Source: Vicinamibacteraceae bacterium (GTDB lineage Bacteria > Planctomycetota > Phycisphaerae > Phycisphaerales > UBA5793). Taken from it: a stretch of 50,508 bases of DNA. Both the position numbers and the translations under genes were made by a program. The stretch's first letter is position 1, and each line of letters begins with the position of its first letter. Below the pieces are notes generated by a model, which searched no databases, was not told the origin of the DNA, and saw only the letters and a list, made by a program, of their open reading frames with translations. Positions 17,589 through 50,508 of the stretch are shown in pieces. The DNA lies in NCBI GenBank assembly GCA_011525805.1, contig WYBR01000043.1:1-50508 (forward strand), read 5' to 3'.

Positions 17589-17646
17589 GCGGCTTCAACT
17601 CTCGCCAGGCGAGCGGGGCGGACGGGCAAAGGCGATCGTCGGGTGC

Positions 17647-17794
17647 CACTGCACGCTCGCGGCTTTGAGCGAGAGTGCAGTGCGGAGGGCAAGGGTGATC
17701 GTCCGCGCTGGCGCGTGGGGCCGGTGAGGAATCGCGATGCGGTGGCGCCTGGACGCTCGCCATCGATCTCCGCCCGGAGCGGCGGCGATCGATG
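17647..17794. repeat. Two hairpin repeats (types A and B)
   Basis: A type A hairpin at 17647-17682 (CACTGCAC arm, GTGCAGTG arm, apical GCTTTGAG) and a type B hairpin at 17761-17794 (CATCGATC / GATCGATG arms) lie between the convergent RND and yidC genes. Both are in the opposite orientation to the main array at 24160-25099. The B copy begins 25 bp past the yidC stop and could also act as a transcript end structure. Confidence 0.8.
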
Positions 17795-17818
17795 CCACCT
17801 CCCCGTTCGCGCGGGCGC

Positions 17819-22267: not shown

Positions 22268-22374
22268 GGAGCATGGGCGTCCCGCCCGTGCGAGTCGATC
22301 AACCGTTGGAAGCGATTCACTTCAGACGTGGCGGGTGCCACTGCACGCTCGCGGCTTTGAGCGAGAGTGCAGTG
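22268..22374. repeat. GGGCGTCCCGCCCGTGCGA repeat and type A hairpin
   Basis: Downstream of purM, a 26-bp segment (22268-22293) ending GGGCGTCCCGCCCGTGCGA is almost identical to 34238-34263 (one mismatch). A type A hairpin follows at 22339-22374. The rest of the gap up to 22540 shows no gene. Confidence 0.75.
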
Positions 22375-22540
22375 TGAAGGGCGGGGCGATCGTCCGCGCT
22401 GGCGCGTGGGGCTCGTATTGAGACGCGATGCCGCGGCGAACAATGTCACGCCGCAGCGATACGGCTGAGGTGGCGATGCGCTAGCCGCGGAAATCACCGG
22501 CCTCCATCGACATGCGTGCCACTTGCCGGGATGTCAGCGG

Positions 22541-24061: not shown

Positions 24062-24159
24062 GGGGCCTCCACTGCGTCGGGCGGCGCGGGGCATTGCCGC
24101 CCGCTTTCCCCCTTTCGAGTTTAGAGCACTCCCGCGTCAAGCGTATCGCTGCGGAGTGG

Positions 24160-25099
24160 CGTCGATCGCCGCCGCTCTGGGCGGAGATCGATGGCGGGCA
24201 TGCCGGAGCGGTCGTTTGCCCTCCCCTGTCGGCACTGCACTCTCGCTCAAAGCCGCGAGCGTGCAGTGGCACCCGTCGATCGCTCCTGCCCGCCGCACCG
24301 CACTCTCGCTCAAAGCCGCGAGCGTGCAGTGGCGCCCGACGATCGCTGCTGCCCGTTCGCACTGCACTCTCGCTCAGAGCAGCGAGCGTGCAGTGGCACC
24401 CTCAATCTCGCAGGGTGGCATCGATCGCCGCCGCTCTGGGCGGAGATCGATGGCGAACGTGCAAGCGCGAACGAATGCTCCTGCCCGCCGCACTGCACTC
24501 TCGCTCAGAGCCGCGAGCGTGCAGTGGCGCCCCCTTCCTCGCAGGGTGGCATCGATCGCCGCCGCTCTGGGCGGAGATCGATGGCGAACGTGCAAGTGAG
24601 AACGAGCGCCGTGGCGCCCTTTTCGTCGCTTCGCTCCTCGCGTCCTCGCTCGCGCTTCGGCCTGGTTGTGCATTGCCGTTGATGCGCATCGCCGCGCCTC
24701 GCGACCAGGCCGACGCGCGAGCGAGGACGATCGCCCTTGCCCGCGCGGCATGCATTGACTCCAGAGTGAGTCAATGCATGGCACCATCCATCGACCGCAC
24801 TTGCCCTTCGCACTGCACTCTCGCTCAGAGCCGCGAGCGTGCAGTGGCACCCGACGATTGCTCCTGCCCTTCGCACTGCACTCTCGCTCAGAGCAGCCAG
24901 CGTGCAGTGGCACCCGACGATCGCCCTTGCCCGCACGGCATGCATTGACTCCTGAGCGAGTCAATGCATGGCACCATCAATCGAGCGCCGTTGCCCGCCG
25001 CACTGCACTCTCGCTCAGAGCCGCGAGCGTGCAGTGGCACCCGACGAGTGCTCCTGCCCGCCGCACTGCACTCTCGCTCAGGGCAGCGAGCGTGCAGTG
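24160..25099. repeat. Array of hairpin repeats (types A, B, C, D)
   Basis: Eight type A hairpins start at 24233, 24296, 24360, 24491, 24811, 24874, 25001 and 25064, each 36 nt; neighbours are 63-64 bp apart, so linkers are conserved too (GACGATCGC, TTGCCC). Type B copies are at 24160, 24419 and 24550 (34 nt, CATCGATC arms). Type D copies are at 24749-24780 and 24939-24970 (13-bp perfect stem, CATGCATTGACTC arm, 6-nt loop CAGAGT or CTGAGC). Type C is the long pair at 24642-24728. Most end in TGGC(A/G)CC and share a CTCAGAGC-like centre. The frames that stay open here are a by-product of the repeats, not genes. Confidence 0.9.
24642..24728. repeat. Long inverted repeat (type C), 25-nt arms
   Basis: Arms 24642-24666 and 24704-24728 match at 24 of 25 positions as reverse complements (GTCCTCGCTCGCGC... 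/ ...GCGCGAGCGAGGAC), enclosing 37 nt that include the palindrome GATGCGCATC. Related single arms occur at about 47515-47539 and 47617-47641. It is the largest hairpin in the array. Confidence 0.85.
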
Positions 25100-25130
25100 G
25101 CGCCCTGCTTTGGCCCCTGTCCGCTGCCGC

Positions 25131-46006: not shown

Positions 46007-46153
46007 GGCACTCTTGCTCGAGGCCGCGAGCGTGCAGTGGCGCCCGCGACGCCTGAAGTGAAATCGCTCCAGAAGACGGTTTCACCACCGATCTCGAAGA
46101 GGTGGAACGGGCCTCTGCCCCGTTTGAATTGGACGGGCGGGACGCCCGTACCA
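46007..46153. repeat. Degenerate type A hairpin and GGGCGGGACGCCCG repeat
   Basis: At 46007-46039 one arm of a type A hairpin is intact (GCGAGCGTGCAGTGG) but the other has lost its CACTGCAC part. At 46131-46153 a GGACGGGCGGGACGCCCG copy of the 30-bp repeat family occurs once. The remaining gap up to pdxA shows no gene. Confidence 0.7.
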
Positions 46154-46170
46154 GCGTTGTGAGACAGTTT

Positions 46171-47382: not shown

Positions 47383-47641
47383 GGCTGGCGCGATGCTGTG
47401 TGGCACTCTCTCCTTGCGTCGCGTGCGCTCGAAGGTCGCCGCATCAACGAATGCGCTTCTGTTGAGTCAATTCCCTTCTGCGCCCCTTGTGCCTCTTTGC
47501 GGCAGTGCCGCTCGTCCTCGCTGGCGCGTCGGCCTGGTCGCCGGACGCGGCGCTTCGGCGCTTGCCCGTTCGCCATGCTTCGGCCAGAGCAGCGAAGCAT
47601 GGCACCGCGCGTCTCGTCCTCGCTGGTGCGTCGGCCTGGTA
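47383..47641. repeat. Hairpin repeats upstream of the GH172 gene
   Basis: The 594-bp spacer between pdxA and the GH172 gene contains a type E hairpin at 47573-47602 (CCATGCTTCG / CGAAGCATGG, centre GCCAGAGCAG), two single type C arms (about 47515-47539 and 47617-47641) and a partial copy of the CACACAGCA hairpin (about 47383-47406). No gene is recognised in the spacer. Confidence 0.75.
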
Positions 47642-49878: not shown

Positions 49879-49910
49879 GTCATCATCGCCCAGGCAGGCG
49901 ATGCGCGGTG

Positions 49911-50508
49911 CCATGCTTCGCGGCTCTGGGCGAAGCATGGCGGACGTGCAGGCTCGTGAGTCCCACAAAGGGTGCCACACAGCATCGCGCCAGCGTGCTG
50001 TGTGCGAACGGGCAAGAGCAAGCGACCGCCGTTGCCCCTCGCACTGCACTCTCGCTCAGAGCCGCGAGCGTGCAGTGGCACCCATGAGAGAGCGGGGGTG
50101 GCATCGATCGCCGCCGCTCTGGGCGGAGATCGATGCGAACGTGCAGGTGAGAACGAGCGCCCTTGCCGTCCGGCATGCATTGACCCCAGAGCGGGTCAAT
50201 GCATGGCACCGCCCCTGAACTCCGCCGCGCGGTGCCATGCTTCGCGGCTCTGAGCGAGGCATGGCGAGCGTGCCAGCGTCATCGCATCGCGCCTCGCTCG
50301 CAGGCCGAAGCGCCAGCGAGGACGATCGCCCTTGCCCTTCGCACTGCACTCTCGCTCAGAGCCGCGAGCGTGCAGTGGCACCCCACGAGTGCCCTTGCCC
50401 CTCGCACTGCACTCTCGCTCAGAGCCGCGAGCGTGCAGTGGCACCCCACGAGTGCCCTTGCCCCTCGCACTGCACTCTCGCTCAGAGCCGCGAGCGTGCA
50501 GTGGCACC
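49911..50508. repeat. Second hairpin array, continues past window edge
   Basis: Type E at 49911-49940; CACACAGCA type at 49976-50004; type A at 50042-50077; type B at 50102-50135; a D variant at 50174-50205 with a paired base change; a type E variant at 50235-50264 with one wobble; then type A at 50342, 50405 and 50468, exactly 63 bp apart with near-identical linkers. The last copy ends at the window edge. Confidence 0.9.

Follow-up and report, generated by a model that had tools for sequence, protein, structure and literature searches.

GTGC- and GTGG-tagged REP hairpins in a Phycisphaerales genome and their probable RAYT partner

How do hairpins with unlike stems come to share the same ends and, often, the same centre? 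The question is raised by an array at 24160-25100 of the window, by which we mean the whole stretch of DNA analysed here (50,508 nucleotides; contig C20 of genome G000, 4.54 Mb in 138 contigs). An earlier note had described at least four unrelated stems there, set in one frame, and had suggested a modular element whose stem is exchanged or copied. We find that the hairpins are a known kind of element, with a GTGC or GTGG tag in place of the textbook GTAG.

Hairpin classes and their arrangement in arrays

The array at 24160-25100 contains eight class A hairpins, intact or nearly so, two intact class B hairpins and a decayed third, and two class C hairpins. A second array, at 49905-50508, runs to the contig end. 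The features of the window are listed below, those at 24156 and 24296 being called from the sequence.

17642..17683, plus strand: isolated class A REP
17761..17799, minus strand: class B REP, paired with the class A REP at 17642..17683, tags outside
22334..22375, plus strand: single class A REP
24156..24194, plus strand: class B hairpin, tag and outer pair decayed
24233..24273, minus strand: class A REP (CACTGCAC stem; GGTGC tag on the minus strand)
24296..24336, minus strand: class A REP with one stem mismatch
24360..24400, minus strand: class A REP
24415..24453, plus strand: class B REP (CATCGATC stem, GGTGG tag)
24491..24531, minus strand: class A REP, foot GGCGCC, in a doublet with the class B REP at 24415, tags outside
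24546..24584, plus strand: class B REP
24641..24729, no strand: long imperfect palindrome within a linker, arms of 26 nt, 96% complementary
24749..24785, minus strand: class C REP (CATGCATTGACTC stem)
24811..24851, minus strand: class A REP
24874..24914, minus strand: class A REP, 63 bp after the REP at 24811..24851
24939..24975, minus strand: class C REP
25001..25041, minus strand: class A REP
25064..25104, minus strand: class A REP, foot GGCGCC
46010..46044, minus strand: decayed class A REP
47573..47606, minus strand: class E REP (CCATGCTTCG stem)
49907..49940, plus strand: class E REP
49972..50005, plus strand: class F REP (CACACAGCA stem, centre differs)
50042..50082, minus strand: class A REP
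50098..50136, plus strand: class B REP
50174..50210, minus strand: class C REP (CATGCATTGACCC stem, a paired change relative to the copy at 24749)
50231..50263, plus strand: class E REP, one arm altered
50342..50508, minus strand: three class A REPs exactly 63 bp apart, cut off by the contig end

As the earlier note had reported, class A copies recur at 63-64 bp, and for several neighbours the spacing is exact (24262, 24325 and 24389; 24840 and 24903; 25030 and 25093; 50371, 50434 and 50497). Larger units repeat in tandem every 131 and 190 bp with 92-93% identity, and 24916-25105 is a tandem copy of 24726-24915 at 92% identity. Stretches like the CGTCCTCGCT...GGCCTGGT of the long palindrome at 24641..24729 recur in other linkers. 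The end motif TGCAGTGGCRCC is present 17 times in the window at up to one mismatch, compared with 0.87 expected, and CCATGCTTCG five times, compared with 0.16 expected.

On the tag strand, the unit reads GGTG(C/G) - stem - loop - stem' - CGnnnKGCAAG. Class counts were taken from 955 kb of G000 stretches together with whole-genome pattern counts; the 955 kb hold 193 tagged copies in six classes, which fits a REP as a short, high-copy palindrome with a conserved unpaired tetranucleotide at one foot (A 85, B 58, C 14, E 12, F 12 and G 12, the count for E being too low because its pairing often reaches into the tag). Assembly was probably interrupted by the arrays, since many contigs start or end inside them (e.g. 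C1, C6, C20, C23, C46, C102 and C105), and the copy numbers are lower bounds. The canonical REP tag is GT[AG]G (PMC2817692, PMC6006769). Here five classes (A, C, E, F and G) bear GGTGC, and class B mostly bears GGTGG; the GTGG of B fits GT[AG]G, but the GTGC of the other five classes fits neither that pattern nor GTAG, and we therefore class the element as a variant and not as a GTAG-REP. Searches limited to GT[AG]G miss REPs tagged with GTGC. A CGnnnKGCAAG-like tail was found in six of six classes, and the centre GCTYTG is common to A, B, C and E and absent from F and G, which makes tag and tail the constant parts.

These results support the modular layout that had been proposed, with fixed ends and variable stems, since six classes have the same tag and tail. 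The count of at least four stems also stands, and genome-wide there are at least six: the CACACAGCA and CACACATCG classes, which the earlier note did not list, have the tag and tail of the others without the CAGAGC centre. Three of its four stems (CACTGCAC, CATCGATC and CATGCATTGACTC) do lie inside 24160-25100, but the fourth, CCATGCTTCG, lies outside, at 47573, 49911 and 50235. The common frame ending in TGGC(A/G)CC does not describe the CATCGATC hairpins of that array, which have the opposite orientation to class A and end in CCACC instead of GGCACC. On the question of shared parts occurring without a stem, 149 of the 177 in-frame matches to centre and foot have one, and most of the others listed resemble chance matches in GC-rich sequence.

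The note had further set these hairpins against ordinary REP families, which were said to keep the stem. We found that the stem is kept as strictly within a class: the class A stem is identical in 84 of the 92 copies that have the class A loop, and the other eight show single-arm point changes or one larger decay, with no new paired stems. In addition, a fixed tag and loop with varied stems is already documented (PMC3686654, PMC3733652). REPs of one RAYT orthogroup, Pseudomonas PF8-PF16, keep tetranucleotide and loop and differ in their stems (PMC3686654), and tagged REP superfamilies have been described (PMC3733652).

Neighbours with their tags outside number 44, and most of them have a spacer of 37-39 bp, irrespective of which classes are paired (A-B, G-B or F-A). 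Consecutive doublets lie about 15 bp apart, tags inside. Doublets at 37-39 bp thus alternate with gaps of about 15 bp, and the arrays are largely tandem doublets, that is, the BIME or REPIN layout of inverted pairs with tags outside, fixed spacing and tandem repetition. Once the hairpins are identified as REPs in BIME or REPIN arrangement, nearly everything in the earlier note follows.

Other palindromes were seen in the same genome. At 46100-46155 of the window there is a divergent doublet of the type GTGGAACGGGCCTCTGCCCCGTTT...GGACGGGCGGGACGCCCGTACC, which resembles GTGG doublets at C1:5073-5099. A family CCCACGAT-GAGGCTCTGCGA-ATCGTGGG has at least 14 copies in G000, with a GCTCTG centre and without a GTGS tag in the usual place (e.g. 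C6:7978, C6:8338, C7:69881 and C25:9422; L086, L175, L180). GTGG-TACAGGCTTTCAGCCTGTAC doublets form a GTGG-tagged, REP-like family with other stems and loops (L083, L084, L085 and L158; C1:63007 and similar), and CCCTCCCCCG-GCTCTG-CGGGGGAGGG hairpins join a GCTCTG loop to a further stem, without the tag (G000:C6:88723, C40:9613, C118:1264 and C7:71369).

A RAYT gene on C40 and the expansion of the hairpins in G000

The earlier note had advised looking for a linked transposase, and there is one. A RAYT gene lies on a contig other than that of the window (G000:C40:16298-16843, minus strand), and class A and B arrays immediately flank it on both sides, as they would a cognate RAYT. NF047646, the NCBIfam family of REP-associated tyrosine transposases, matches the ORF at 95 bits, above its cut-off of 80. 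The best PDB sequence match of the protein is TnpAREP 4er8, and 4er8, TnpAREP bound to REP, is also the best fold match of its AlphaFold model (pLDDT 92; E 5.5e-9). HxH and Tyr141, which make up the HuH and single-tyrosine Y1 core, are invariant in 27 RAYT relatives. Against Pfam PF01797 the protein reaches 21.4 bits, which is under the cut-off; of the PF01797 matches in G000 above the cut-off, those examined (on C101, C60, C41, C86, C6, C30 and C99) have none of these hairpins nearby. A second RAYT of the GTGS clade in G000 (C82:22517-23017; L230) is 35% identical to the C40 protein and scores 72.9 bits to NF047646, just under the cut-off. No tagged hairpin was found beside it, leaving the C82 RAYT an orphan.

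Copies of types A and E are a recent expansion at the level of the species. Allowing up to two mismatches, we counted 135 type A copies in G000 and a single copy apiece in two congeners; 58 other genomes of the order had none. For type E the count in G000 was 39, and a search at three mismatches gave none in the other genomes, although G001 and G003 yielded a small number of related copies to an exact search with tag and stem. In G003, the ortholog of the gene next to the array is not followed by such an array, and the gene on the other side differs. In the stretches compared, the genes around the C40 RAYT differ from those around the ortholog in a congener.

We are confident that the hairpins are REPs in inverted doublets and BIME-type arrays, served in trans by the HuH/Y1 RAYT (TnpAREP) on C40. 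The C40 RAYT probably spreads them.

Tags, guide-contact segments and stems among RAYT relatives

Named records of relatives of the C40 RAYT come mostly from MAGs of Phycisphaerales and other Planctomycetota. We surveyed 119 relatives with sufficient flank, blind to the tag, for the same palindrome within 600 bp on both sides. Such a palindrome flanked 79 of the 119, compared with 6 of 180 control windows; the 119 include near-duplicates (one gene reached through two collections), by which independence is somewhat overstated. Both copies were tagged GTGC in 49 of the 79 pairs and GTGG in 11, and five pairs had one of each, for a total of 65. None of the 79 had a GTAG tag, and in none of the six positive control windows were both copies GTGC or GTGG. 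Where single copies sit on each side of the RAYT, the tags face outward. We could orient 133 of the 158 flanking copies, and among these tagged copies there were 41 distinct outer heptamers, so diverse are the stems. Information content was 1.6-1.8 bits at the GTG positions, values somewhat inflated because orientation relied on the tag; past the first two pairs of the stem it was mostly about 0.3-0.7 bits. One RAYT (L222; G038:C1 around 283060) lies within a regular CACGGACCTG...CAGGTCCGTG REP array with 55 bp spacing and nearly all copies in one orientation.

The comparison group consisted of RAYTs from the same order that are weakly similar and whose palindromes carry GTAG; 11 of these have a clear tag. 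In a tree, one branch (100% SH-aLRT) separated the 11 GTAG RAYTs from 67 GTGC/GTGG RAYTs; a single tag change suffices for the GTAG/GTGS split, while there are several switches between GTGC and GTGG. On the GTGS side the guide-contact segment is WQxGGG[YF]DR, and on the GTAG side it is mostly WQxR[FY][WY]EH. Part of the set had been retrieved by the WQxGGG pattern itself, so that motif frequency there is by construction; the tags were unselected. A WQxR..EH-type motif was found in 8 of the 11 GTAG RAYTs and the GGG motif in none, and C40-type RAYTs lack the guide-contact segment of GTAG RAYTs. Two RAYT-like genes (L380 and L382, in G025 and G060) carry WQDES[WY]D[HR], outside both motif groups, and have GTGG-type tagged palindromes; they are possible intermediates of the tag change, and were omitted from the tree's GTAG/GTGS contrast only as far as length allowed.

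In E. coli TnpAREP, W94, Q95, E100, H101 and R104 are given as residues of the guide region (PMC6006769). We infer that the GGG segment may read the third and fourth bases of the tag. We had also considered the position of E. coli R104 as a determinant of the tag, and dropped it because R and non-R both occur within the GTGS clade. In two RAYT clades of one order the guide (GTAG or GTGC/GTGG) changes in step with a short protein segment, one that takes in guide-contacting residues in E. coli TnpAREP, a natural experiment on target reading by single-strand transposases in which guide specificity could be tested by a motif swap. The contrast of tag and motif also suggests why the stem of a REP may vary while tag and loop stay fixed. 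Varied stems with a common tag, BIMEs, RAYT-flanking palindromes and loops common to families have all been described (PMC2817692, PMC3733652, PMC3686654, PMC6006769). The word GTGC is absent from the two tag surveys that we searched for it, and we found no paper on RAYTs of the GTGS group in the open-licence literature, so an earlier report elsewhere is possible. The part that appears to be new is a clade with GTGS tags and a RAYT motif of its own.

Stems change between species beside an orthologous RAYT. The G001 ortholog of the C40 RAYT is 60% identical and its sister in the tree, and it is flanked by CACTGAAC...GTTCAGTG and CATCGAAC...GTTCGATG. The G000 counterparts are CACTGCAC...GTGCAGTG and CATCGATC...GATCGATG, which differ from them by one or two paired substitutions, with the GCTCTG centre unchanged. 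With S. maltophilia TnpAREP, changes at tag position 3/4 or in the loop abolish or severely reduce cleavage, whereas changes of stem sequence are milder and mismatches are harmful (PMC8266576), which gives a biochemical reason to expect a constant tag and loop with variable stems.

The proposed mechanism draws on these observations. The RAYT would bind the single-stranded REP through the 5' GTGC/GTGG guide tetranucleotide and the folded hairpin (its loop and helix shape), would cut close to the tag, the tail or both, and would then join the strand elsewhere. What moves is probably a whole doublet, its tags facing out and its two REPs 37-39 bp apart. Recognition would require a paired stem of about the right length and little of its sequence, so that paired changes could gradually split the stems into classes without altering tag, tail and, in many cases, loop. 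Arrays may enlarge through tandem duplication of doublet blocks, which would produce the periods of 63/64, 131 and 190 bp. A cleavage site predicted from the guide model (GC for GTGC) is not claimed; the tails of other species are without it.

How many RAYTs stand behind the classes can be read in two ways. Each class may have, or have had, its own RAYT, in several REPtrons of which some RAYTs were lost or not assembled, with tag and centre inherited from a common ancestor and not read by one enzyme; we regard this as evenly poised. A second RAYT of G001, other than the one beside the A and B counterparts, is flanked by CATGCTTCA/G stems, with an E-type stem (CATGCTTCG) and, in one hairpin, the loop of class G. 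At least some of the stem classes thus trace to different RAYTs. Further, the class F stem CACACAGCA flanks RAYTs in two other genera (G075 and G132), and the loops of F and G differ. Yet the G000 assembly yielded no RAYT next to hairpins of C, E, F or G, A and B flank the same RAYT in two species despite their unlike stems, and mixed doublets keep one fixed spacing. There is also a wider proposal, which we advance tentatively and at somewhat less than an even chance: a distinct GTGS REP superfamily would extend across Planctomycetota, its RAYTs would read the guide by WQxGGG[YF]DR, and at least one of them would be stem-agnostic, moving several classes in mixed doublets since it reads tag, tail and loop and not the sequence of the helix.

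The remaining explanations fare poorly. Exchange of stems between copies by an unknown mechanism, with centre and flanks as the conserved parts of a recombination, was the suggestion of the earlier note and would account for at least six unrelated stems with a common tag and tail, but we saw no sign of it: classes are nearly invariant internally, no new paired stem appears among the deviant class A copies, species diverge by paired substitutions beside an orthologous RAYT, and such a pattern has been described before in REP orthogroups (PMC3686654). We consider it extremely improbable. A role as intrinsic terminators or as structured intergenic regulatory RNA would agree with the strength of the hairpins, their intergenic positions and the frequent transcription of REPs (PMC3733652). 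In the array, however, we found no terminator-like site and no match to an Rfam family, and neither the missing array downstream of the G003 ortholog nor a recent, species-specific expansion fits such a role, which makes this reading very unlikely. CRISPR and integron attC were rejected from the sequence alone, the arms being near-perfect palindromes and the intervening stretches themselves repeats.

Comparison with known systems

Like GTAG REPs with their RAYT/TnpAREP, the hairpins are short palindromes with an unpaired tetranucleotide at the foot and hundreds of copies (PMC2817692; PMC3733652; PMC6006769), and they share inverted doublets, BIME arrays, inverted copies of one palindrome on either side of the RAYT gene and several stem families per tag. 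They differ in the GTGC/GTGG tag and in a RAYT segment that reads WQxGGG[YF]DR and not WQxR[FY][WY]EH. PF8-PF16 of Pseudomonas orthogroup IV similarly keep tag and loop, with paired stem changes among the REPs of orthologous RAYTs, but have GTGG/GTAG tags, shorter stems and gammaproteobacterial RAYTs (PMC3686654). Mosaic doublets of REP types in tandem arrays are also known from the BIMEs of E. coli (y with z1 or z2 REPs), which have another tag, a required stem bulge and a RAYT of another group (PMC8266576). As in REPINs, inverted pairs of REPs at a constant spacing look like the unit that spreads, although here the doublets stand largely in tandem arrays and mix stem classes (PMC3116915). 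The atypical class 3 TnpAY1 of Planctomycetes comes from the same phylum and also pairs hairpins with a Y1 transposase, but there the foot is CnGA and the tyrosine motif Y....Q (PMC6006769), whereas the motif of the C40-type RAYT is YIHxNPV.
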